A stretch of DNA of 34,897 nucleotides, taken from assembly GCA_001788395.1 (NCBI GenBank), contig MGBT01000143.1, forward strand, positions 3,667 to 38,563, written 5' to 3'. Below the pieces are notes generated by a model. The model searched no databases and was not told where the DNA came from. It worked only from the letters and a program-made list of their open reading frames with translations. Position numbers and translations under genes: made by a program. The DNA is from Candidatus Rokubacteria bacterium GWA2_70_23. Its GTDB lineage: Bacteria; Methylomirabilota; Methylomirabilia; Rokubacteriales; CSP1-6. Of this stretch, positions 18,367 through 32,848 are shown in pieces (the stretch's first letter is position 1; every line of letters starts with the position of its first letter).

Positions 18367-18399
18367 ATGAGCCGGGTGTCCCACGGAGATCTCGCGTGA
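18367..18399 (+). CDS. 10-codon leader ORF coupled to the SDR gene
   Basis: ATG AGC CGG ... GCG TGA encodes [10 protein letters not shown]. Its TGA overlaps the GTG start of the SDR gene (GTGA), and its ATG sits just after a -10 box. It may therefore be a leaderless mini-ORF that brings ribosomes to the main gene. It shows no runs of a single amino acid that would suggest classical attenuation. Whether it is translated is unknown. Confidence 0.35.
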
Positions 18400-19385
18400 G
18401 GGCCATCGTCACCGGCGGCGCAGGGTTCATCGGCAGCCACCTGGTGGACCGGCTCGCGGCCGACGGGCACTCGGTCCTGGCCCTCGACAACTTCTCCACC
18501 GGACGCCCCGACACCCTGGCGCACCTGGCCGGGCACGCGCGCGTGAGACTCGAGCGGGCGGACGTCGCCGAGGCGGACCGGCTGCTCCCCCTCTTCGACG
18601 GGGCCGACTGGGTCTTCCACCTGGCGGCGCTGGCCGACATCGTGCCGTCCATCGAGCGGCCGCTCGACTACCACCGCGCCAACGTGAATGGCACCGCCGC
18701 GGTGCTGGAAGCTGCGCGGCGGTCCGGCGTGACGCGCTTCCTCTACGCGGCCTCCTCGTCCTGCTACGGCATCCCCGACCAGTACCCGACCCCTGAGGAG
18801 GCGCCCATGCGCCCCCAGTATCCCTATGCGCTCACCAAGCTCCTGGGGGAGCAATGCGTGCTGCACTGGGGCCGCGTGTACGGGCTGCCGGTGGTGAGCC
18901 TCCGGCTGTTCAATGTCTATGGGCGCCGATCACGGACGTCCGGGGCCTACGGCGCCGTGTTCGGTGTGTTTCTGGCGCAGAAGCTCCAGGGCCGCCCCTT
19001 CACGGTGGTGGGAGACGGCACGCAGTCCCGCGACTTCACCTTCGTGAGCGACGTGGCGGATGCCTTCGTGACGGCGGCCGAGTCGGACGTGGCGGGCGAG
19101 GTCTTCAATGTGGGTACGGGGAGTCCCGTCAGCGTGAACCGATTGGTGGCGCTCCTCCGGGGCGACGTCGTGCATGTGCCCAAGCGGCCCGGGGAGCCCG
19201 ACCGCACCCACGCCGACGTCAGGAAGATCGGCGCGCGGCTCGGCTGGCGGCCCAAGGTCTCCATCGAGGAGGGCGTCCGGATCCTGCTGGACCACATCGA
19301 CGACTGGCGCGCGGCCCCGGTGTGGACGCCGGAGAGCATCGAGGTCGCGACCCGCGACTGGTTCCGCTACCTCGGCAAGGGATGA
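18396..19385 (+). CDS. NAD-dependent epimerase/dehydratase (extended SDR, sugar nucleotide)
   Basis: A 329-aa extended short-chain dehydrogenase. The NAD-binding motif [16 protein letters not shown] begins at residue 4. The catalytic Ser region is [13 protein letters not shown] and the YxxxK pair is in [23 protein letters not shown] and [11 protein letters not shown] are typical of UDP-glucose 4-epimerase/GDP-sugar enzymes. The start is GTG 18396, preceded by GGAG, rather than the track's 18342, because homology begins at RAIVTGG. It lies 10 nt before the HldE-like gene and belongs to the same operon as gmhA, so it may act on an NDP-heptose or supply its partner sugar. The substrate is not determined. 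Confidence 0.87.
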
Positions 19386-19395
19386 GGCGGCGACG

Positions 19396-20931
19396 ATGAC
19401 TCCGCTTCCGCTCGAAGGCAAGATCAAGAGCGTCGACGACCTGGCGGCGGACCTCGATGCCCTTCGCGCTCAGGGCAAGCGCGTCGTCCAGTGTCACGGG
19501 GTCTTCGACCTGCTGCACCCGGGGCATATCCGCCACTTCGAGGCCGCCCGGGCCGAGGGCGACGTCCTCGTGGTCACGGTGACGCCGGACCGCTTCGTCA
19601 ACAAGGGGCCGGGCCGTCCGGTGTTCAACCAGCGCCTCCGGGCCGAGTCCATCGCGGCGCTGCAGAGCGTGGACTACGTGGCCATCGACGAGTGGCCCAC
19701 GGCCGTGGAGGCGATCCGCCGGCTCAAGCCGGCCGTCTACGTCAAGGGGAGCGACTACGCCGACGCCGGCGACGACCTCACGGGCAAGATCGTCGAGGAG
19801 CGCCAGGCAGTGGAGGCGCATGGCGGTCGCATCCACTTCACCGCCGAGATCACCTTCAGCAGCTCGGGGCTCCTCAACGTGCACTTCGACGTGTACCCCG
19901 AGGAGGCCCAGTCGTTCCTCCGAGAGTTCCGGCAGCGCCACTCGGCCGAGGAGGTCATCGGGCTGCTCCGGGACCTGAAGGGGCTGCGCGTCCTCGTCAT
20001 CGGGGATGCGATCATCGACGAGTACCACTACGTGCAGTCGCTGGGGAAATCGCCCAAGGAGCTGCTCGTCACCACGCGTTTTCTGAGGGAGGAGCAGTTT
20101 GCCGGCGGTATCCTCGCCTGCGCGAACCACGTGGCCGGGTTCTGCGACCGGGTGGACCTGGTCACCTGCCTCGGGACGCAAGACTCCCGCGAGGAGTTCA
20201 TCCGCTCGCATCTCAAGGGCAACGTCTCGCCGACCTTCTTCTACCGAGAGGACACCGGCACGGTGGTGAAGCGCCGCTACGTGGAGCAGGCCTTCCTCAG
20301 CAAGATGTTCGAGGTCTCGTTCCTCGACGATACGGATCTGCCCGAGCCGGTGGGCCGGGAGGTGGAGCGGCACGTGGCCCGGGTGGCGTCCGGCTACGAC
20401 CTCGTGCTGGTCGCGGACTACGGCCACGGTTTTCTCGGCCGCGACCTGATCCGGCTGCTGGCCTCCGGGGCCCGCTACCTCGCCATCAACGCGCAGACCA
20501 ACAGCGCCAATGCCGGGTACAACCTCGTCACCAAGTACCCGCGCGCGGACTATGTCTGCATCGACGAGCCAGAGGTGCGCCTGGCGGCTCAGGACCGCCG
20601 CACGGACCTCGAGCAGATCATGCGGGTCCTGGCCAAGGACCTGACCTGCCGCCGCATCTCGATCACGCAGGGGCACAAGGGGTGCATCGCCTACGCCGAG
20701 GACGAGGGCTTTCATCACGTGCCCGTCCTCTCGCGCGAGATCGTGGACCGGATCGGGGCCGGCGACGCCTACCTGTCGGTCACGGCCCCGTGCGCCGCCG
20801 CCGGTTACCCGGCCGATGTCATCGGCTTCATCGGCAACGCCGTGGGGGCGCTGGCCGTGCGCATCATCGGCAACCGGACGCCGGTGGAGCCCGTGCCGCT
20901 CTTCAAGTTCATCACCGCGCTGCTCAAGTGA
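19396..20931 (+). CDS. HldE-like bifunctional enzyme in reversed order: nucleotidyltransferase-PfkB kinase
   Basis: A 511-aa fusion. Residues 1 to about 150 are a cytidylyltransferase-fold nucleotidyltransferase (HldE C-domain/RfaE2 type) with HGVFDLLHPGHIRHFEAA carrying the HxGH nucleotide site, and KPAVYVKGSDYAD. From about residue 185 onward there is a PfkB/ribokinase-type sugar kinase: LRVLVIGDAIIDEYHYV at its N-terminus, the gly-rich VADYGHGFL, and DRIGAGDAYLSV containing the catalytic Asp. E. coli HldE has kinase first and nucleotidyltransferase second; here the order is swapped. It would phosphorylate heptose 7-phosphate at C1 and add a nucleotide. The ATG at 19396 follows GAGGCGG. The next gene overlaps it by GTGA and is GmhA-like, which supports the heptose role. 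Confidence 0.85.
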   Translation: MTPLPLEGKIKSVDDLAADLDALRAQGKRVVQCHGVFDLLHPGHIRHFEAARAEGDVLVVTVTPDRFVNKGPGRPVFNQRLRAESIAALQSVDYVAIDEWPTAVEAIRRLKPAVYVKGSDYADAGDDLTGKIVEERQAVEAHGGRIHFTAEITFSSSGLLNVHFDVYPEEAQSFLREFRQRHSAEEVIGLLRDLKGLRVLVIGDAIIDEYHYVQSLGKSPKELLVTTRFLREEQFAGGILACANHVAGFCDRVDLVTCLGTQDSREEFIRSHLKGNVSPTFFYREDTGTVVKRRYVEQAFLSKMFEVSFLDDTDLPEPVGREVERHVARVASGYDLVLVADYGHGFLGRDLIRLLASGARYLAINAQTNSANAGYNLVTKYPRADYVCIDEPEVRLAAQDRRTDLEQIMRVLAKDLTCRRISITQGHKGCIAYAEDEGFHHVPVLSREIVDRIGAGDAYLSVTAPCAAAGYPADVIGFIGNAVGALAVRIIGNRTPVEPVPLFKFITALLK

Positions 20932-21494
20932 CCCCGAAGTATCTCGTCGAGCTGGGGGCGCTGCTGGCCCGGGTCGAGGCGACCGACGGGGCGGGAGCGG
21001 CGCTCGCCCTCGACGACGGGCTGGCACGGGCCATCGACATCGTCAGGACCCAGACCGCGGCGGGACGCAAGGTCATCTTCATCGGCAACGGCGGCAGCGC
21101 GGCCATCGCGAGCCACCAGGCCGTCGATTACTGGAAGAACGGCGGCATGCGGGCCGTGGCCTTCAACGACCCGTCGCTGCTCACCTGCGTCAGCAACGAC
21201 TTCGGCTACCGCCACGTGTTCGCGAAGCCCATCGAGATGTTCGCGGACGCAGGCGACGCGCTGATCGCCATCTCGAGCTCCGGCCAGTCGGAGAATATCC
21301 TTCGGGGTGTGGAGGCCGCCCGCCGGGCCCGCTGCCGCGTCATCACGCTGTCGGGCTTCCGGCCCGACAACCCGCTGCGCCGGCTGGGCGAGCTGAACTT
21401 CTGGGTCCCCACCGACTCCTACGGTCACGTCGAGATCACCCACCTCGCGATCTGCCACTCGGTCGTCGACGCCATCATGGCCGGCCGGCGCTGA
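20928..21494 (+). CDS. gmhA: SIS-domain phosphoheptose isomerase (GmhA-like)
   Basis: A 188-aa SIS-fold protein of normal GmhA length. It has VIFIGNGGSAAIASHQAVD (the phosphosugar-binding loop), LIAISSSGQSENILRGVEAA (the second Ser-rich loop) and a C-terminal HVEITHLAICHSVVDAIM, whose His and Glu are the expected catalytic region. It would convert sedoheptulose 7-phosphate to D-glycero-D-manno-heptose 7-phosphate, the substrate for the kinase domain of the preceding gene. The GTG start is coupled by a 4-bp GTGA overlap. A GmhB phosphatase is not seen in the window. Confidence 0.88.
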   Translation: MTPKYLVELGALLARVEATDGAGAALALDDGLARAIDIVRTQTAAGRKVIFIGNGGSAAIASHQAVDYWKNGGMRAVAFNDPSLLTCVSNDFGYRHVFAKPIEMFADAGDALIAISSSGQSENILRGVEAARRARCRVITLSGFRPDNPLRRLGELNFWVPTDSYGHVEITHLAICHSVVDAIMAGRR

Positions 21495-21644: not shown

Positions 21645-23330
21645 ATGCTGTTCATCAATCCGGCCCAGGAGAAGTTCGGCGGGTTCCTGTCGCGGTATGT
21701 CCCCGTGGGCATTCCCGTGGCCATCGGCTGCCTGTCGGCCTACCTGACGAAGCAGGGCATCAAGTGTCGCGTGGTGGACGAGGAGCTGATCGAGCTGACA
21801 CCGTCGGTGCTGCGGGAGCTGGTCGACGGGCTCGAGCGGCCCTACGTGTTCGGGCTGTCGTGCCTGACCGCGCACGTGGTGCGCGCCTACCAGCTCGCCG
21901 CCATGATCAAGGCGGAGTTTCCCGACTCCATCATCGTCGCCGGCGGCCTCCACCCTACCGCCTGCCCCGACGAGCCGCTCCAGACGGGCAACATCGATTA
22001 CGTCGTCCGGGGCGAGGGCGAAGAGGTGATGCTCCAGCTCCACGGTGCCCTGCGCGGCGGCGCCGACCCGACCAAGCTCAAGGGGGTCAGCTTCAAGCGC
22101 GCCGGCCGGATCGTCCACAACCCCGAGGCGCCGCTCATCCCGGATCTGGACGACATCCCCATGTTCCCGTACGAGCTGTTCGACAATCCCAAGTACGACA
22201 TGGCCTTCATCACCTCATCCCGCGGGTGCCCCTACAAGTGCACCTACTGCAGCCAGCGCATGCTGACCGGGACGACCTACCGCTACAAGTCTGCCGGCCG
22301 CATCGTCCAGGAGCTCGACGTGCTCGTCAACCGGTACGGGCAGAAGCAGATCGTCTTCTACGATGACAACTTCTGCTTCAAGGCCAAGCGCGTGAGCGAG
22401 GTGTGCAGCGCGATCATCGACGCGGGGCTCCACAAGAAATGCACGTTCTCCGTCCAAACCCGGGCGGACAACTTCCCGCCCGACATGGTCCCGATCCTCG
22501 CGGCGGCGGGTTTCACGCACGCGGGCTTCGGCATGGAGACCGGCGTGAACCGGCTGGCGCAGCTCATCGGCAAGGGGGAGACCGTGGAGCAGCACCTCGA
22601 GGCCGTGGATCTCGGCAAGAGGCACGGCTTCGACGTCTCGCTCTTCATGATCTTCGGCCTGCCCACCGAGACCGCGGAGGAGCGGGCGACCAGCTTCCGC
22701 GTTGTCCAGGGCGCGAAGGTCCAGGCCTCGAAGTACAACAACCTGATCCCGTACCCCGGCACGCCCATCTTCACCGACCTGCAGAAGAGCGACCGGATCC
22801 ACATCTCGCCGGGCTGGAGCAACTTCAACAGCACCCTGTCCGTCACGCGGAGCATCTTCGACAGGACCCCGCTGCCCTATGTGCCGGAGACGACGAGCGA
22901 GTTCGAGCTCAAGCGGGACATCATCAAGTACAACATGAAGACCTACGTGACCCCGCGGGCCGTCACGGCGATCCTCCTGGGCAAGAAGGGGCCGGGCTGG
23001 TATCAGCTGCCGGAGCGCTGGTTCCTCACGCCGCGCGAGCTCTACCACGTGGCCCGCATCGGCGTGAACGTGGTGGTGAACATGGCCGTGGCGTTCCTGC
23101 CGCTCCGGATCACCGAGCCCATCATGAACTGGCTCAACCCGGCCATGCGGGCGCGGCCGAGGATCGAGGGCTACGACGCCTCGGCCTTCAGCGCGTCCCA
23201 GTGGGACAAGGACTCGGCCAAGCAGAAGACGGTCGTGCTGAAGGCGGCCCAGGAGGAGCGGAAGGCCACGGGGCGCGTCAACATCGCGCTCGACGTGATC
23301 GAAGGCCCCACGGACACAGTCGGCGTGTAG
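21645..23330 (+). CDS. B12-binding-type radical SAM protein 2
   Basis: A 561-aa protein with an N-terminal cobalamin-binding-type domain (VPVGIPVAIGCLSAYLTKQG, IIVAGGLHPTACPDEPLQ, VVRGEGEEVML) and a radical SAM core with C195, C199 and C202 (SSRGCPYKCTYC). YDDNFCFKAKRV, ETGVNRLAQLIGKGETVEQ and LIPYPGTPIFTDLQ follow in the order of BchE-like enzymes. The last 130 residues include a hydrophobic amphipathic stretch (VVVNMAVAFLPLRITEPIM) that could touch the membrane. The reaction is unknown; a membrane-lipid-linked sugar or hydrophobic substrate would fit. It is a single-gene unit with its own promoter, a GC hairpin downstream and a convergent neighbour. Confidence 0.85.
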   Translation: MLFINPAQEKFGGFLSRYVPVGIPVAIGCLSAYLTKQGIKCRVVDEELIELTPSVLRELVDGLERPYVFGLSCLTAHVVRAYQLAAMIKAEFPDSIIVAGGLHPTACPDEPLQTGNIDYVVRGEGEEVMLQLHGALRGGADPTKLKGVSFKRAGRIVHNPEAPLIPDLDDIPMFPYELFDNPKYDMAFITSSRGCPYKCTYCSQRMLTGTTYRYKSAGRIVQELDVLVNRYGQKQIVFYDDNFCFKAKRVSEVCSAIIDAGLHKKCTFSVQTRADNFPPDMVPILAAAGFTHAGFGMETGVNRLAQLIGKGETVEQHLEAVDLGKRHGFDVSLFMIFGLPTETAEERATSFRVVQGAKVQASKYNNLIPYPGTPIFTDLQKSDRIHISPGWSNFNSTLSVTRSIFDRTPLPYVPETTSEFELKRDIIKYNMKTYVTPRAVTAILLGKKGPGWYQLPERWFLTPRELYHVARIGVNVVVNMAVAFLPLRITEPIMNWLNPAMRARPRIEGYDASAFSASQWDKDSAKQKTVVLKAAQEERKATGRVNIALDVIEGPTDTVGV

Positions 23331-25634: not shown

Positions 25635-26636
25635 ATGGCGACAGCGTTCCGGCATGTCCTGGTGACGGGCGGAGCGGGCTACGTGGGGGCGGTGCTCGTG
25701 CCCAAGCTCCTGGCGCACGGCTACCGGGTCACGGTGGTGGACCTCTACATCTTCGGCGAGGCCGCGCTCGCCTCGGTGTCCGGCCACCCCGAGCTCCGCC
25801 AGGTGAAGGGGGACATCCGCGACCGGGCGCTCCTGGAGCGCGAGCTCACGGGGGTGGACGCGGTGATCCACCTGGCCTGCATCTCCAATGATCCGAGCTT
25901 CGAGCTGAACCCCGCGCTGGGCAAGTCCATCAACTACGACGCCTTCTTGCCGCTGGTGGACATCTCCAAGGACCGCGGCGTCAGGCGCTTCATCTACGCC
26001 TCCTCCTCGAGCGTCTACGGCATCAAGGAGGAGGAGGACGTCACCGAGGACCTCCCGCTCACCCCCTTGACGGACTACTCCAAGTACAAGGCCCTCTGCG
26101 AGGAGGTGCTGCTGCGCGCCCAGGCGCCTGGCTTCACCACGCTGATCCTCCGTCCCGCCACGGTGTGCGGGGACTCCCCGCGGCTCAGGCTGGATCTCAC
26201 GGTGAACATCCTGACCAACCTCGCCGTGAACCGGGGCCGGATCACGGTGTTCGGGGGCGCGCAGAAGCGGCCCAACATCCACATCGAGGACGTCACCGAC
26301 CTCTACGTGCAGGCCCTCGAGTGGGACGACGCGCGCATCGCGGGGGAGACCTTCAACGCGGGCTACGAGAACCACACCGTGGCGGCGCTGGCCGAGATGG
26401 TGCGGGAGGTGGTGGGGCGGGAGCAGGTGAGCATCGAGACGACGCCCACGAACGATCACCGCTCGTACCACATCTCCTCCGAGAAGATCAAGCGCGCCCT
26501 CGGCTTCGAGCCGCGCCGCACGGTGGAGGACGCGGTGAGGGATCTCACGCAGGCCTTCCGCGCGGGACGGATCCCCGACTCGATGGACGACCCGCGCTAC
26601 TACAATATCAAGACCATGCTCGCGGCGAAGCTGTAG
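25635..26636 (+). CDS. NAD-dependent epimerase/dehydratase (extended SDR), sugar nucleotide
   Basis: A 333-aa extended SDR. It has HVLVTGGAGYVGAVLVPKL at residues 7-25, VIHLACISNDPSFELNP, the Ser region YASSSSVYGIKEE and the catalytic YSKYK in TDYSKYKALCEE. LRPATVCGDSPRLRLDL and RPNIHIEDVTDLYVQAL are substrate-side motifs. It would oxidise, dehydrate or epimerise an NDP-sugar to provide the keto sugar for the two aminotransferases that follow at once (the next gene begins 1 nt later). It might act as the LegB-like dehydratase of the locus, but its sequence does not prove a 4,6-dehydratase. Confidence 0.85.
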   Translation: MATAFRHVLVTGGAGYVGAVLVPKLLAHGYRVTVVDLYIFGEAALASVSGHPELRQVKGDIRDRALLERELTGVDAVIHLACISNDPSFELNPALGKSINYDAFLPLVDISKDRGVRRFIYASSSSVYGIKEEEDVTEDLPLTPLTDYSKYKALCEEVLLRAQAPGFTTLILRPATVCGDSPRLRLDLTVNILTNLAVNRGRITVFGGAQKRPNIHIEDVTDLYVQALEWDDARIAGETFNAGYENHTVAALAEMVREVVGREQVSIETTPTNDHRSYHISSEKIKRALGFEPRRTVEDAVRDLTQAFRAGRIPDSMDDPRYYNIKTMLAAKL

Positions 26637-26637
26637 G

Positions 26638-27753
26638 ATGCGGGTCCCGTACTCCTCCCTCAGGGAGCAGTTCGCCGACTCCGAAGCGATCCTGCGCGAC
26701 ATCAAGGGGCTGCTGGAAACCACGCAGTTCACCCTGGGGCCGGCCGTCGCGCGATTCGAGGCCGCCTTCGCCCGGATCTGCGGCGCCCGCTTCGCCGTTG
26801 GCGTGGGGACGGGCACGGACGCCCTCTTCCTCTCGCTCAAGGCGCTCGGCGTCGGTCCCGGCGACGAGGTCATCACCGCGGCCAACACCTTCATCGCCAC
26901 GGCGGGTGCCATCGTGGCGGCGGGCGCGCGGCCGGCCTTCGTGGACGCAACCGACGACTTCAACATCGATCCGGCCGGGATCGAGCGGGCCATCACGCCG
27001 CGGACCAGGGCGATCATGCCCGTGCATTACGCCGGGCAGCCGGCCCGGATGGGCGCGATCCTGCTGATCGCGGCCGCTCACCGGCTGCCCGTGGTGGAGG
27101 ACGCCTGCCAGGCCATCGGCGCCTCCGTCGACGGCCGTCTCGTGTCGAGCTTCGGTGTGGCGGCGGGTTTCAGCCTCCACCCGCTCAAGAATCTCAACGT
27201 GTGGGGCGACGGCGGCGTCATCGTCACGAGCTCGGAGGAGCTGGACGCCACGCTCCGGCTCCTCCGCAATCACGGGCTCAGGAACCGGGACGAGGTGGAG
27301 ATCTTCGGCTACAACAGCCGGCTCGACACGCTCCACGCCATCGTGGGCAACCACCTGATCACGGAGGTGGAGGCCATCACCGCGGCCCGGATCAGGAACG
27401 CCCGCGCGCTGGACGCGGGGCTCCTGCCCCTGGCGCCGCGGGTGCGCATCCCCGCCCGCCACGCCAACGAGCGCCACGTCTTCCACCTCTACATGTTCGA
27501 GGCCGACGACCGCGACCGGCTGCGGGCGTATCTCATCGAGCGCGGGGTCGAGGCGAAGATCCACTACCCCGTGCCGCTGCATCTCCAGCCGGCCGGCCGG
27601 CGCCTCGGCTACAGGGAGGGCGACTTCCCCGAGGCCGAGCGCCAGGCGAAGCGCATCATCACGCTGCCGGTCCATCAGCACCTGAGCCAGGACCAGGTGG
27701 ACTACATGGTCGAGGTGGTGACGGACTTCTACGGCACGGGCTCGCGGCGGTGA
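26638..27753 (+). CDS. DegT/DnrJ/EryC1-type PLP sugar aminotransferase, copy 1
   Basis: A 371-aa PLP-dependent aminotransferase acting on keto sugars linked to nucleotides. It has VGVGTGTDALFLSLKALGVG (PLP phosphate region), EVITAANTFIATAGAIV, VVEDACQAIGASVDG with the Asp that contacts the PLP ring nitrogen, and the Schiff-base lysine in SLHPLKNLNVWGDGG. NHGLRNRDEVEIFGYNSRLD and EAKIHYPVPLHLQPAG complete the family pattern. The ATG is 1 nt after the SDR stop. It is paired with a copy of identical length directly downstream. Confidence 0.92.
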   Translation: MRVPYSSLREQFADSEAILRDIKGLLETTQFTLGPAVARFEAAFARICGARFAVGVGTGTDALFLSLKALGVGPGDEVITAANTFIATAGAIVAAGARPAFVDATDDFNIDPAGIERAITPRTRAIMPVHYAGQPARMGAILLIAAAHRLPVVEDACQAIGASVDGRLVSSFGVAAGFSLHPLKNLNVWGDGGVIVTSSEELDATLRLLRNHGLRNRDEVEIFGYNSRLDTLHAIVGNHLITEVEAITAARIRNARALDAGLLPLAPRVRIPARHANERHVFHLYMFEADDRDRLRAYLIERGVEAKIHYPVPLHLQPAGRRLGYREGDFPEAERQAKRIITLPVHQHLSQDQVDYMVEVVTDFYGTGSRR

Positions 27754-28865
27754 CCGAGCCGGGCCGCCGGGTCACGTACATGGACTTGCCCCGTCAGTTC
27801 GCTGACGGCGAGGTGGTGCGGCGGGTGGCGGAGGAGTTCAGCCGCTGCCGTTTCGTCCTGGGCCCCCAGGTGGCGGAGTTCGAGAGCCGCTTCGCCCGGC
27901 TCTGCGGCGCGGCCCACGCGGTGGGGCTCAACTCCGGCACCGATGCGCTGTTCCTCGCGCTCAAGGCGCTGGGTGCGGGCGCGGGGGACGAGGTCATCAC
28001 CGTGCCCAACAGCTTCGTCGCCACGGCGGGCGCCATCGTCATGGCAGGCGCGACGCCCGTCTTCGTGGACGTCAACGCCGAGTACCTGATGGACCCGGCG
28101 GGGCTCGAGGACGCCATCACGCCGCGGACCCGGGCGATCATCCCCGTCCATCTCACGGGCAACCCCGCCGACATGGACGCCGTCGGCGCCGTGGCGTCCC
28201 GGCACCGGCTCGCCGTCATCGAGGATGCGGCGCAGGCCGTGGGCGCCTCCATCGGTTCACGCCGGGTCGGGTCCATCGGGGAGGCGGGCGCCTTCAGCCT
28301 CTTCCCGCTCAAGAATCTCGGCGTGGCGGGGGACGGCGGGATGCTCACCACCAACTCGGCCGCCGTCGCCGATCGGGTGCGTCTGCTGCGCCACCACGGC
28401 CTCCGCAACCGGGACGAGGTGGAGGTCTTCGGCTACAACAGCCGGCTCGACACGCTCCAGGCCATCGTGGGGGACGCCGTGCTGGCCGGCGTCGAGCAGG
28501 TGGCCGAGACGCGGATCCGCCACGCGCAGCTCTACGATCGGGCCCTGGCGCCGCTGGCGCCCCATGTCATCGTCCCGCCGCGGCGGGCGGGCGTCCGCCA
28601 GGTGTTCCACACCTACGTGGTTCAGGTGGAGGCGCGCGACCGGCTCATGCCCTTCCTGGAATCCCGCGGGGTGGAGACGAAGATCCACTACCCGATCCCG
28701 ATCCACCTGCAGAAGGCGGCGGAGTCGCTCGGTTACAAGCGCGGCTCCTTCCCGGTGTGCGAGGCCCAGACCGGGCGCATCCTGTCGCTGCCCGTCCACG
28801 AGTACTTGACCGACGACGACCTCGAGTACGTGGTGGCCCAGCTCATGGAGTTCTACCCCCGATGA
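27750..28865 (+). CDS. DegT/DnrJ/EryC1-type PLP sugar aminotransferase, copy 2
   Basis: A 371-aa paralog of the preceding enzyme with the same length and motif order: LNSGTDALFLALKALGAG, EVITVPNSFVATAGAIV, VIEDAAQAVGASIGS, the lysine in SLFPLKNLGVAGDGGM, HHGLRNRDEVEVFGYNSRLD and ETKIHYPIPIHLQKAA. The GTG start overlaps the previous TGA (GTGA). An ATG at 27780 would be a shorter option. Residues around the active site differ between copies (HYAGQPARM versus HLTGNPADM, and NLNVW versus NLGVA), so they may use different keto sugars or amino positions. The stop overlaps the ATG of the repeat mini-ORF. Confidence 0.92.
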   Translation: MTEPGRRVTYMDLPRQFADGEVVRRVAEEFSRCRFVLGPQVAEFESRFARLCGAAHAVGLNSGTDALFLALKALGAGAGDEVITVPNSFVATAGAIVMAGATPVFVDVNAEYLMDPAGLEDAITPRTRAIIPVHLTGNPADMDAVGAVASRHRLAVIEDAAQAVGASIGSRRVGSIGEAGAFSLFPLKNLGVAGDGGMLTTNSAAVADRVRLLRHHGLRNRDEVEVFGYNSRLDTLQAIVGDAVLAGVEQVAETRIRHAQLYDRALAPLAPHVIVPPRRAGVRQVFHTYVVQVEARDRLMPFLESRGVETKIHYPIPIHLQKAAESLGYKRGSFPVCEAQTGRILSLPVHEYLTDDDLEYVVAQLMEFYPR

Positions 28866-28993
28866 GCGCTTGCGCGAAGAGGCCACACCGCGACCCGTGG
28901 TCTTCCACGTTCAGGCAAGATGGTCAGAGCGCTTGCGCGAAGAGGCCATACCGCCACCCGTGGTCTTCCACGTTCAGCCGAGCAGACCGATGA
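28862..28993 (+). CDS. 43-aa mini-ORF made of two peptide repeats, coding status uncertain
   Basis: The ATG at 28862 overlaps the aminotransferase stop as ATGA, and the TGA at 28991-28993 overlaps the E1 alpha start as ATGA. The ORF is thus chained to both neighbours. It reads twice SACAKRP(H/Y)R(D/H)PWSSTF with a 5-residue spacer, reflecting the underlying 51-bp DNA repeat. Both base differences between the units change amino acids in this frame, which argues against selection on this peptide. It may simply carry ribosomes across the repeat. Confidence 0.3.
   Translation: MSACAKRPHRDPWSSTFRQDGQSACAKRPYRHPWSSTFSRADR
28864..28977 (+). repeat. 51-bp tandem direct repeat (two units, 63-bp period) with hairpins
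   Basis: Units 28864-28914 and 28927-28977 share 49 of 51 bases, beginning GAGCGCTTGCGCGAAGAGGC and ending TCTTCCACGTTCAG. Each contains CGTGG-TCTT-CCACG, a perfect 5-bp stem with a 4-nt loop (28896-28909 and 28959-28972). The repeat fills the junction between the second aminotransferase and the E1 alpha gene. Confidence 0.9.
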
Positions 28994-30039
28994 GCCCGGC
29001 GGCCCGCAGGAGCAGGCCTCCGGTGTCCCGGCCTCAGAGGGCCGCCGCGCGGGGCGGGGCGGATGAGGTGCTGCGCGGGCTGTCGCCTGCGCTCTTGACC
29101 GACCTCTACGTCAGCATGAGGCGGATCCGGCGGGCCGAGGAGATGATCGTCCAGCTCTATCCCGAGCAGGAGATCCGCTGTCCCACCCATCTCTCCATCG
29201 GCCAGGAGGCCGTGGCGGCCGGGGTCTGCCGGGCGCTCCGCCCTACCGACACGGCGGTGAGCACTCACCGCTGCCACGCGCATTACCTCGCCAAGGGTGG
29301 CGATCTCCGCGCCATGTTCGCTGAGCTCTACGGCAAGGCCACCGGCTGCTGCGGGGGGAAGGGCGGCTCCATGCATCTCACGGCGCCGGAGGTCGGCATG
29401 CTCGGCGCCTCCGCCATCGTCGCGGGCTCCATCCCGCTCGCCCTCGGGTGCGCGCTGGCGGCGAGCCTCACCGGCAGCGACGAGGTCTCCGTGGCCTTCT
29501 TCGGGGATGCGGCGGCCGAGCAGGGCGTGACCCACGAGAGCCTGGGCGTGGCCGCCCTCCGGAAGCTCCCGGTGCTCTTCGTGTGCGAGAACAACCTCTA
29601 CGCGACCAACTCGCCGCTCAAGGTCAGGCAGGTGACCCCGGATATCGCGCCGCGGGCCGCGGCCGACCTGATGCCCGGCGTCATCGTGGACGGCACCGAC
29701 GCCGTGGCGGTGTACCGCGCGGCGCGCACCGCCGTGGCGCGGGCGCGGGAGGGCGGGGGCCCGACGCTCATCGAGGCCAAGACCTATCGCTGGCGCGAGC
29801 ACGTGGGGCCCAACTTCGACATCGACCTCGGGTACCGCACCCAGGCTGAGCTGGACCGCTGGATGGCGAAGGATCCGGTGACGCGGCTGGCCCGCCGGCT
29901 CCTGCGCGCCGGTGTGCTGCCTGCTGCGCGGCGCCAAGCACTCGAGGCGGCCGTGGAGGCGGAGGTGGCCGACGCCGTGGCCTTCGCCAGGTCGAGCCCG
30001 TTTCCGGAGCCAGAGTCCCTCTATGCGGATGTCGACTGA
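28990..30039 (+). CDS. thiamine-diphosphate-dependent dehydrogenase E1 component, alpha subunit
   Basis: A 349-aa protein of the PDH/acetoin dehydrogenase E1 alpha family. It has LYVSMRRIRRAEEMIVQLY, LSIGQEAVAAGVCRALRP, the THRCHAHYLAKGGD segment, GGKGGSMHL, and the ThDP/Mg-binding motif starting GDAAAEQGV and ending FVCENNLYA (GDG-type ... ENN). It would form the ThDP adduct of a 2-oxo acid together with the beta subunit. I choose ATG 28990, coupled to the mini-ORF, because the track's longer start at 28870 reads through the DNA repeat. No E2 or E3 gene is near, and it follows sugar aminotransferases, so a role in making a branched or acyl-modified sugar is more likely than central metabolism. 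Confidence 0.87.
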   Translation: MSPAARRSRPPVSRPQRAAARGGADEVLRGLSPALLTDLYVSMRRIRRAEEMIVQLYPEQEIRCPTHLSIGQEAVAAGVCRALRPTDTAVSTHRCHAHYLAKGGDLRAMFAELYGKATGCCGGKGGSMHLTAPEVGMLGASAIVAGSIPLALGCALAASLTGSDEVSVAFFGDAAAEQGVTHESLGVAALRKLPVLFVCENNLYATNSPLKVRQVTPDIAPRAAADLMPGVIVDGTDAVAVYRAARTAVARAREGGGPTLIEAKTYRWREHVGPNFDIDLGYRTQAELDRWMAKDPVTRLARRLLRAGVLPAARRQALEAAVEAEVADAVAFARSSPFPEPESLYADVD

Positions 30040-30067: not shown

Positions 30068-31111
30068 ATGCGGCAGATCAAGTACCGGGAGGCCATCGAC
30101 GAGGCCACGCGCCAGGCCATGGCCAAGGACGAGCGCATCATCGTCCTGGGCGTGGGCGTGGACGACGCCAAGGGGATCTTCGGCACCACGCGCGGGGCCT
30201 TCGAGCAGTTCGGGAGCGCGCGCGTCTTCGACACGCCGCTCTCCGAGGCCGCGCTCACGGGGATGTGCGTCGGGGCGGGGCTGCGGGGGCTCCATCCGCT
30301 GCTGGTCCACGCGCGCAACGATTTCCTGCTCCTCACCATGGACCAGATCGTCAACAACGCCGCCAAGTGGCGCTACATGTGCGGCGGCAAGCTGCGCGTG
30401 CCCCTGACGATCCGCGCCATCGTCGGGCGAGGCTGGGGCCAGGCGGCGCAGCACTCGCAGAGCCTTCAGGCGCTCTTCGCTCACGTGCCAGGACTGGCCG
30501 TGATCATGCCCGCGACCCCCGCCGACGCCAAGGGCCTGCTCATGACCGCGCTGTCCATGGACAGCCCGGTGATCTGCCTCGAGCACCGCTGGCTCTACGA
30601 GAAATCGGGACCCGTCCCCGAGGACCCCTACTACATCCCGCTCGGGCAGGCCGGCGTGGTCCGCGAGGGGAGCGACGTGACGATCGTGGCCGTCTCCCAC
30701 ATGGTGCTGGAAGCCGTCCAGGCCGCCGAGGCGCTGGCGGCGGACGGCATCCAGGCCGAGATCCTGGACGTGCGGAGCCTCAGGCCGCTGGACTCGGATT
30801 CGATCGCGCGGTCCGTTGCCAAGACCGGTCGCCTGGTGATCGCCGACACCGGCTGGAAGAGCTTCGGGGTCTCCGCCGAGATCGCCGCCCGGATCGGGGA
30901 GGCGCTGTTCGGCCGGCTCAAGGCGCCGATCCGCCGCGTGGCCCTCCCGGACGTGCCGACGCCGGCATCGTCGGCGCTCGAGCAGGTCTACTATCCAGGC
31001 CCTCGGGAGATCGCCGCGGCCGCGCGGCGCTGCCTGGAGGTTGCCCTCCCCGAGGAATCGGCTGAGCGCCCAGCCCCCGCCCGGCCCAGGGACTTCCATG
31101 GACCCTTCTAG
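30068..31111 (+). CDS. thiamine-diphosphate-dependent dehydrogenase E1 component, beta subunit
   Basis: A 347-aa protein of the E1 beta/transketolase family. The N-terminal YREAIDEATRQAMAKDERI, FDTPLSEAALTGMCVGAGL (containing the Glu that contacts ThDP) and AKWRYMCGGKLRVPL are in the pyrimidine-binding domain. The C-terminal domain has VTIVAVSHMVLEAVQAAE and LRPLDSDSIARSVAKTGRLV. It pairs with the alpha subunit 28 bp upstream. ATG 30068 is preceded by GGAGG at 10 nt; the in-frame 30023 start is possible but lacks homology. The last 25 residues are Pro/Arg-rich and not part of the family. Confidence 0.88.
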   Translation: MRQIKYREAIDEATRQAMAKDERIIVLGVGVDDAKGIFGTTRGAFEQFGSARVFDTPLSEAALTGMCVGAGLRGLHPLLVHARNDFLLLTMDQIVNNAAKWRYMCGGKLRVPLTIRAIVGRGWGQAAQHSQSLQALFAHVPGLAVIMPATPADAKGLLMTALSMDSPVICLEHRWLYEKSGPVPEDPYYIPLGQAGVVREGSDVTIVAVSHMVLEAVQAAEALAADGIQAEILDVRSLRPLDSDSIARSVAKTGRLVIADTGWKSFGVSAEIAARIGEALFGRLKAPIRRVALPDVPTPASSALEQVYYPGPREIAAAARRCLEVALPEESAERPAPARPRDFHGPF

Positions 31112-31183: not shown

Positions 31184-32848
31184 GTGAAGGTCCTCTTCGT
31201 CGAGCGGGACGTCGAGTACATCGACCCGATGAACATCCAGCTCCTGTCGGCGCTGGCCAAGCAGCGGGGGCACTCGACCTTCCTCACCATCCTGAGCGCG
31301 GACGACCTCGACGCCGACCTGCGGCGGATCAAGCCGGACCTGGTCGCCTTCAGCGCCAAGACCGGGGAGCACACGACCTACTTCCGCGCCAACGAGCGGG
31401 TGAAACAGTACTCGCCGAAGATCTTCACGATCATGGGCGGGCCGCACCCGACCTTCTTCCCCGGTCTCATCGAGACCCACGACTTCGACGCCGTCGGGGT
31501 GGGGGAGTGCGACGAGGGCTGGCAGGAGCTGCTGGACGCGCTCGAGGCCGGCCGGAGCATCGACGCCATCCCGAACATCGTCACGCGGGCCAACGCCTCC
31601 AAGGTGCTGCGCGCCACCACGCGGGCCTCCGAGCTCGTCCAGCTCGCGGGGGCGGCCGCCTCCGTCCGGCCCGAGTACGACCTCGAGGTGGACCCGACGT
31701 TCCTCCGGCCGCGCCGCACGGTGCTCGACACCCTGCCCTTCTACGACCGGGAGCTGGTCTACCGGAAGACGCACTTGGCGCGCTTCCCCCTCCGCTCGTT
31801 CATGTCCTCCCGCGGCTGTCCGTATCAGTGCACCTACTGCTTCGAGCCCAAGTTCAACGTGATGTACGCGGGCAAGGGGCCCATCTACAACCGCTACAGC
31901 GTGAAGCGGCTGTGCGCGGAGCTGGCGGAGCTCAAGGAGCGCTGGCCCACGCAGTTCATCAAGTTCTACGACGACATGTTCATCCTCGACCGGAAGGTGG
32001 ACGCCTGGCTCGAGGAGTTCGCCGAGGTGTACCCGCGGGAGGTGGGGCTGCCGTTCTTCTGCCTGACGCGCGCCAACGTGCTCACGCGGGAGAACCTGGC
32101 GGCGCTCACGCGGGCCGGCCTCCACTCGCTGACCATGTCCATCGAGGCGGGCAACGAGTACGTCCGGAACACCATCGTGAAGCGGCACATGCGGCAGCAG
32201 CAGATCGAGGACGCCTACACCCTGTGCTGGGAGAACGGGATCGTGACCTTCGCCAACACGATCCTCGGCATCCCGGTCCGCAAGGAGATCATGGCCCAGC
32301 AGGGCAAGACGGCCATCGACTACGACATCGAGTCGCTGGACATCAACATCCGCTGCCGCGTCACCTATGCCGACTTCCCGGTGCTCCACCCCTACCCGGG
32401 CTGCGAGCTCACCGAGTACGCGGTGAAGCACGGCTTCTTCGACGGCGACTTCGACAAGCTGTTCTTCAGCTACCAGGCCGAGAGCCCGTTCACCTGCTTC
32501 ACGCCCAAAGAGGCCCTGATGCAGAAGAACCTCTCGCTGCTCGGGCCCCTCTGCGTGATGTTCCCCAGCGCGCGGTGGCTGCGGAATCTGACGGTCAACG
32601 TGCTGATGAAGCTGCCGCTGACGAAGCTGTACTTCTTCCCCTGGTACCTGGCCAAGGGCTACCTCAACATCTTCCGCGTGTACCCGTTGAAGCTGTCGCT
32701 CTGGAGCCTGGCCCGGAACCTCGCCTACAGCATCCAGCGGGAGTGGCGGAAGCGCTCGCCGCACAAGCTCCTGTACCGCAAGACGCTGCGCCTCGACCGG
32801 CCCACGGGCCAGACCCTCGGCGGGCCGCCGCCGGACCCGGGCTCGTGA
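31184..32848 (+). CDS. B12-binding-type radical SAM protein 3
   Basis: A 554-aa protein with an N-terminal cobalamin-binding-type domain (KVLFVERDVEYIDPMNI, FTIMGGPHPTFFPGLIE, AVGVGECDEGWQELLDAL), a linker of about 80 residues, and a radical SAM core with C212, C216 and C219 (SSRGCPYQCTYC). KFYDDMFILDRKVDAWLEEF, SIEAGNEYVRNTIVKRHM and VLHPYPGCELTEYA match the BchE-like group. The C-terminal 100 residues are basic and aromatic (LYFFPWYLAKGYLNIFRVYP), suggesting membrane contact, as in protein 2. It has a GTG start with GGGAGAG before it. The end overlaps the next gene by GTGA. The reaction is unknown. Confidence 0.85.
   Translation: MKVLFVERDVEYIDPMNIQLLSALAKQRGHSTFLTILSADDLDADLRRIKPDLVAFSAKTGEHTTYFRANERVKQYSPKIFTIMGGPHPTFFPGLIETHDFDAVGVGECDEGWQELLDALEAGRSIDAIPNIVTRANASKVLRATTRASELVQLAGAAASVRPEYDLEVDPTFLRPRRTVLDTLPFYDRELVYRKTHLARFPLRSFMSSRGCPYQCTYCFEPKFNVMYAGKGPIYNRYSVKRLCAELAELKERWPTQFIKFYDDMFILDRKVDAWLEEFAEVYPREVGLPFFCLTRANVLTRENLAALTRAGLHSLTMSIEAGNEYVRNTIVKRHMRQQQIEDAYTLCWENGIVTFANTILGIPVRKEIMAQQGKTAIDYDIESLDINIRCRVTYADFPVLHPYPGCELTEYAVKHGFFDGDFDKLFFSYQAESPFTCFTPKEALMQKNLSLLGPLCVMFPSARWLRNLTVNVLMKLPLTKLYFFPWYLAKGYLNIFRVYPLKLSLWSLARNLAYSIQREWRKRSPHKLLYRKTLRLDRPTGQTLGGPPPDPGS

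Follow-up and report, generated by a model that had tools for sequence, protein, structure and literature searches.

A reversed-order nucleotidyltransferase-PfkB kinase fusion, a candidate sugar-activating enzyme in glycan-type gene clusters of many phyla

Introduction

Heptoses are activated along two routes, the ADP-beta route through HldE and the GDP-alpha route through HddA and HddC. In the capsular GDP-heptose pathway of Campylobacter, GmhA, HddA, GmhB and HddC are followed by Cj1427, a GDP-heptose C4-dehydrogenase (PMC10680097). The zinc ligands of GmhA are H61, E65, H180/183 and Q172/175 (PMC5387315), and docking on BpHldC predicted that its TNG and NSD motifs contact heptose-1-phosphate (PMC7993394). 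The HENases, as presented in commentaries (PMC11461863, PMC11573728), comprise mono-domain, kinase/nucleotidyltransferase and isomerase/kinase/nucleotidyltransferase types, some of which accept CTP or UTP. According to the same commentaries, the arginine in the (F/L)xxGRSTT motif of STTR5 is tied to the use of CTP and UTP besides ATP, and Salmonella HldE is promiscuous without that arginine (PMC11461863, PMC11573728).

A different chemistry is known from antibiotic biosynthesis, in which E1-alpha/beta complexes are the proposed catalysts of C2 branching of keto sugars, with pyruvate as donor. In vitro support for C2 branching exists for KbDH, and split transketolases, known from Streptomycetes only, have been proposed to add hydroxyacetyl (PMC12247030, PMC4753412).

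Here we analyze a gene that joins the same two catalytic domains as HldE in the opposite order. It is located in a 34,897-nucleotide stretch of DNA from Candidatus Rokubacteria bacterium GWA2_70_23 (contig MGBT01000143.1), referred to below as the window.

Results

Domain structure of the fusion

The gene and its two domains have the following coordinates:

19396..20931, + strand, NT-PfkB fusion (reversed-order kinase/nucleotidyltransferase), 511 aa
19480..19878, + strand, nucleotidyltransferase (NT) domain, residues ~29-161, motifs CHGVFDLLHPGH, KGPGRP, KGSDY and SSSGLLN
19987..20883, + strand, PfkB kinase domain, residues 198-496, motifs GDAIID, GKSPKE, GG, DYGHG, DEPE and DRIGAGDA

The open reading frame runs uninterrupted from the ATG at 19396 to a TGA ending at 20931. 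The original prediction had placed the NT domain first and the PfkB kinase second, opposite to E. coli HldE, and the Pfam matches bore this out: CTP_transf_like covers residues 34-124 (E 4e-14), and PfkB lies C-terminal to it at residues 198-496 (E 2e-17). The NCBIfam models for HldE, rfaE domain II and rfaE domain I also aligned to the two parts in reversed order, with scores of 146 bits for the HldE equivalog (cut-off 521), 104.7 bits for domain II (cut-off 181.5) and 95.2 bits for domain I (cut-off 345). An AlphaFold2 model built on 52 homologues reached a mean pLDDT of 89.7, and B. cenocepacia HldA was the top PDB match (Foldseek) for its kinase part. In the NT profile comparison, ethanolamine-phosphate cytidylyltransferase and HldC scored 88 vs 84 bits.

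Distribution of the family

Among 95 genomes of the phylum, about ten carry a fusion of 55-90% identity and four a distant one (28-32%); separate HldC- and HldA-like genes are present in nearly all. A search of 84,980 species genomes, in which 180 relatives were confirmed among the candidates and at least 80 were listed, placed full-length or near-full-length homologues of the same domain order in at least 80 other species, with 38-63% identity among the matches listed. Among these listed homologues, 75 fall in 16 named phyla and five have no phylum name. Because the NT-then-PfkB order recurs in the ten or so related genomes and in at least 80 distant species, as the domain-architecture check showed, chance or assembly error is excluded as the source of the fusion.

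Cultured carriers include Vogesella aquatica, Azospirillum oryzae, Solidesulfovibrio carbinolicus and Polynucleobacter. The two annotated RefSeq records seen, WP_149200362.1 (A. oryzae) and WP_129356083.1 (S. carbinolicus), bear the name 'PfkB family carbohydrate kinase'. In the literature searched, mainly openly accessible papers, no description of the reversed order, the gene neighbourhood or the function of the family was found. A broad, long-known family with this order had been named beforehand as a finding that would speak against the original prediction; breadth was indeed found (at least 16 phyla), but the family is apparently undescribed in function.

Several individual loci deserve mention. 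A 55% identical copy (L012, genome G064) contains an in-frame TAG and is either a pseudogene or an assembly error. One fusion (L057) lies on a contig of a Nanoarchaeota MAG, for which a binning error is possible. L013, L014, L015 and L044 carry another reversed fusion, which is divergent (28-32% identity); it sits behind EPI2 and EPI1 (described below) in three of these four loci, and the fourth contig begins inside EPI2. Matches in phage records are confined almost entirely to the NT part, and a phage origin of the fusion was rejected.

Phylogeny of the two domains

The kinase tree contained 52 rows of the main family (G1), four of the divergent group (G2) and 18 canonical HldA/HldE sequences, and was unrooted. 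Each of the three sets occupied one side of a branch with an SH-aLRT support of 99. In the NT tree, likewise unrooted, G1 and G2 grouped together (SH-aLRT 90) against canonical HldC/HldE (85). Both domain trees thus placed the fusion outside HldA, HldC and HldE, separated by long branches with good support, and canonical fused HldE and split HldA sequences were intermingled. Other PfkB proteins from the same genome did not serve to root the kinase tree, their branches being very long; the remote NT references (3elb, 2b7l, 3glv) were also long-branched, and rooting is weak for both domains.

Catalytic and substrate positions

The HxGH residues H41, G43 and H44 are invariant in the family alignment, as are G237, G238, E393 and the GAGD motif (G454, A455, G456, D457) of the kinase. 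Residues held in common with the canonical enzymes are G35, F37, D38, H41, G43, H44, D65, K70, G71, R74, P75, R82, K117 and G118 in the NT domain, and G203, D208, G237, G238, G260, K292, R294, D341, E393, G429, D451 and GAGD in the kinase. Equivalents of the E. coli HldE catalytic residues are kept in 52/52 members or nearly so, both in the NT domain (HxGH, K70/G71, R82) and in the kinase (D457, D208, G237/G238, K292, D341, E393). In the NxxE-type kinase motif the asparagine is replaced by aspartate in the window protein. Loss of kinase active-site residues, which would have spoken against the original prediction, did not occur on alignment, and loss of kinase function was rejected.

The predicted substrate positions gave a different picture. 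The asparagine of TNG, present in 24/24 canonical sequences, is histidine (H34) in 52/52 family members, which changes the motif to CHG; that of NSD, again present in 24/24, is threonine (T63) in 98% of the family, giving TPD. In the kinase, GKSxKE stands in place of the RISPEAP loop, the family having G217 for R and K221 for E as fixed residues; further fixed differences are A241 and H245 (each for N), E306 (for R) and N369 (for D). The divergent group G2 also has H34, T63, G217, K221 and H245. All of these motifs were read from alignments. The earlier label of a heptose enzyme is premature: the scores fall far short of the heptose equivalog cut-offs, and different residues have become fixed at the predicted substrate positions. 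The STTR5 arginine was not found in the fusion, where Ser155 or Phe/Tyr154 stands at that place, depending on the alignment register.

The isomerase partner and other heptose genes of the genome

Directly downstream of the fusion lies a further gene:

20928..21494, + strand, SIS-domain GmhA-like isomerase, 188 aa, GTG start overlapping the TGA stop of the fusion

Within the sequence GTGA at 20928-20931, the SIS gene starts with the GTG at 20928 and the fusion ends with the TGA at 20929-20931. Owing to this overlap the two genes are translationally coupled, so the downstream coupling claimed for gmhA holds for a GmhA-like gene. The SIS protein scored 92.8 bits against TIGR00441 (gmhA; cut-off 209.45), a cut-off passed by no gene in G000 and 56 family genomes, and its top PDB matches were phosphoheptose isomerases. 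At each of the four zinc positions of GmhA it still has a metal-binding residue: the two histidines are kept, and the other two positions are substituted, E65 by D in 48/48 aligned sequences and Q by E in 47/47. The SIS gene of the window is the only match to the gmhA model in its own genome.

Elsewhere in the same genome, a split HldA/HldC pair that keeps the canonical substrate motifs lies beside a GT9 heptosyltransferase-like gene. Almost every genome of the set (G000 and the 56 family genomes) has split HldA/HldC. No GmhB adjoins the fusion in the window, TIGR00213 had no match in the genome, and a looser model gave only weak matches there. In other genomes, a GmhB motif (LDRDGT) adjoins the fusion in L058 and lies near it in L122.

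Conserved gene neighbourhood

The fusion is surrounded in the window by putative sugar-modifying genes:

18396..19385, + strand, EPI1, SDR epimerase/dehydratase, directly upstream of the fusion (50/89 loci)
25635..26636, + strand, EPI2, SDR, best PDB match 6vo6/6vo8 (41/89 loci)
26638..27753, + strand, DegT/DnrJ aminotransferase 1
27750..28865, + strand, DegT/DnrJ aminotransferase 2, assigned by clustering with aminotransferase 1
28990..30039, + strand, ThDP enzyme, E1-alpha-like subunit
30068..31111, + strand, ThDP enzyme, E1-beta-like/transketolase C-type subunit

EPI1 ends 10 bases before the ATG of the fusion. Two B12-binding radical SAM proteins (21645-23330 and 31184-32848) flank the sugar genes.

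The census of neighbours covered 89 loci with a recognised fusion, a sample biased by its selection for similarity to the window protein, and genes were clustered by similarity grouping. The SIS gene was present in 49/89 loci and at least one subunit of a two-subunit ThDP enzyme in 62/89; SIS is absent from about half of the loci in the stretch seen, and many of these stretches end at contig ends. Two pairs of genes proved to be mutually exclusive, by p-values that treat related genomes as independent. Only one locus had EPI2 together with rS8, a SPASM radical SAM family, compared to 13.4 expected (p=3e-9), and none combined the transketolase C-subunit with E1-beta, compared to 8.2 expected (p=8e-6). 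The other ThDP subunits (transketolase vs E1) were found together in two loci (p=7e-6). A HAD-like protein accompanied 20/27 transketolase-type loci (p=4e-12) and never the E1 type. This family of ~205 aa with the motif D[FL]DNT (L078:11366-12052 and 21 other loci) is tied to transketolase-type clusters, and the one member scanned had no Pfam match at 1e-5.

EPI2 scored 157 bits against 6vo6/6vo8, which we take to be Campylobacter Cj1427, and 104 bits against the next PDB match. An independent, phyletic comparison of 57 family genomes showed homologues of EPI2 (57% identity or more) in 8/13 fusion carriers vs 0/44 others (Fisher p=8e-7). E1-beta was useless as a phyletic marker, nearly all genomes having PDH-like homologues. 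The A. oryzae locus, with two SDRs, the fusion, SIS, an SDR, E1-alpha, a transketolase-C-type subunit and two DegT genes, is arranged like the window. Two-subunit ThDP enzymes, either E1-alpha/beta or split transketolase, were seen in glycan-type clusters of many phyla (L047-L126).

Discussion

The independent fusion proposed in the original prediction gains support from the phylogeny of each domain, both trees separating the reversed protein from HldA, HldC and HldE. As canonical HldE and HldA mix with one another, a separate event is the simplest explanation, and an origin of the reversed fusion apart from HldE appears well supported. The same domain order could in principle have arisen by permutation of an HldE gene, and the trees are unrooted, the kinase rooting with other PfkB proteins having failed on long branches. 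We consider such a permutation improbable, since HldA and HldE sequences mix together while the fusion stays outside them (SH-aLRT 99 for the kinase, 85-90 for the NT domain).

As to function, the fusion is probably bifunctional and prepares an activated sugar for a surface glycan, the substrate possibly being altered but heptose-like. Substrate or metal positions are changed in three successive enzymes, their catalytic cores are kept, and canonical HldA/HldC are encoded elsewhere in the genome; we therefore read the fusion and its SIS partner as acting on a related but different substrate from that of the canonical heptose enzymes. That the fusion is simply an equivalent of HldE is unlikely. 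HldA is the closest structure to its kinase, the NT domain is about as near to HldC as to any solved enzyme, and the SIS protein, as the only gmhA-model match of the genome, might also work in the LPS core pathway; nevertheless, scores fall far under the HldE, rfaE and gmhA equivalog cut-offs, each of the three enzymes has other residues fixed at canonical positions, and the genome already has split HldA/HldC. Heptose is still a plausible leading guess for the substrate, although the substrate-site changes (N replaced by H or T, R by G and E by K) could reflect a non-heptose sugar. A phosphate of a hexose, of a pentose or of a longer, octulose-derived sugar, for which the transketolase-type enzyme of the cluster would first supply the ketose phosphate to SIS, would fit the altered substrate loops in kinase, NT domain and SIS protein and the proximity of the NT domain to ethanolamine-phosphate cytidylyltransferase, which is as close as HldC; split transketolases and the HAD-like protein (20/27 loci) could then form a route from ketose phosphate to NDP-sugar. 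This seems quite unlikely, given that E1-type clusters, including that of the window, are without a transketolase proper, that transfer of acetyl to an aldose phosphate would yield a 1-deoxyketose, which SIS could not make into an aldose, and that EPI2 resembles a heptose dehydrogenase.

Under the preferred reading, activation of a heptose-like sugar, the SIS protein would isomerise a ketose phosphate to an aldose phosphate, which the PfkB domain would phosphorylate at C1, and a phosphatase encoded away from the fusion would remove the distal phosphate. The N-terminal NT domain would then transfer a nucleotide onto the sugar-1-phosphate to give an NDP-sugar, which EPI2 (or the radical SAM enzyme in other loci) may oxidise to a keto sugar for elaboration by both aminotransferases and by the ThDP enzyme with its two subunits, possibly with addition of a C2 branch. 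All of these reactions, C2 branching included, are our inference, as are the identities of the substrate and of the nucleotide. Since both kinds of ThDP enzyme, mutually exclusive, attend the fusion, the E1 and transketolase partners suggest, by analogy, that the C2-branching logic of antibiotics is also used in surface glycans. More tentatively, the fusion may activate the sugar in a widespread, undescribed pathway to nucleotide-activated C2-branched higher sugars, with interchangeable oxidases (Cj1427-like SDR or SPASM radical SAM) and ThDP enzymes (E1 for acetyl, split transketolase for hydroxyacetyl).

If the heptose-like reading is true, the fusion would represent a third route to activating such a sugar, present in at least 16 phyla and labelled no more specifically than carbohydrate kinase in the records seen. 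Its ThDP and oxidase partners, each kind able to replace the other, would suggest that antibiotic C2-branching chemistry may also occur in cell-surface glycans, and the cultured carriers make the pathway testable. NDP-heptoses are ligands of the innate immune receptor ALPK1, and a divergent NDP-heptose would, if confirmed, bear on that field.

Comparison with known systems

The fusion shares with HldE two domain superfamilies and the catalytic motifs GAGD and HxGH, but differs from it in the opposite domain order, in having CHG, TPD and GKSxKE in place of TNG, NSD and RISPEAP, and in occupying its own side of both trees. The domains of split HldA (RfaE1) and HldC (RfaE2) are homologous to those of the fusion, but unfused. 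Like the fused HENases, it joins a kinase to a nucleotidyltransferase; however, the NT-first order is not among the types of Tang et al. 2024 as given in commentaries (PMC11461863, PMC11573728). With the Campylobacter pathway the locus has in common a GmhA-like isomerase and a Cj1427-like SDR in one surface-glycan cluster, whereas its kinase is of the PfkB type, its NT domain is of the HldC type, and the fusion had no match among HddA and HddC models. Finally, as in the case of alphaKADH2 (E1-alpha/beta) and the split transketolases (PMC12247030), two-subunit ThDP enzymes stand beside sugar dehydrogenases and aminotransferases; those systems belong to antibiotic clusters, whereas here the candidate branching enzymes, of both kinds, are found in glycan-type clusters of many phyla.
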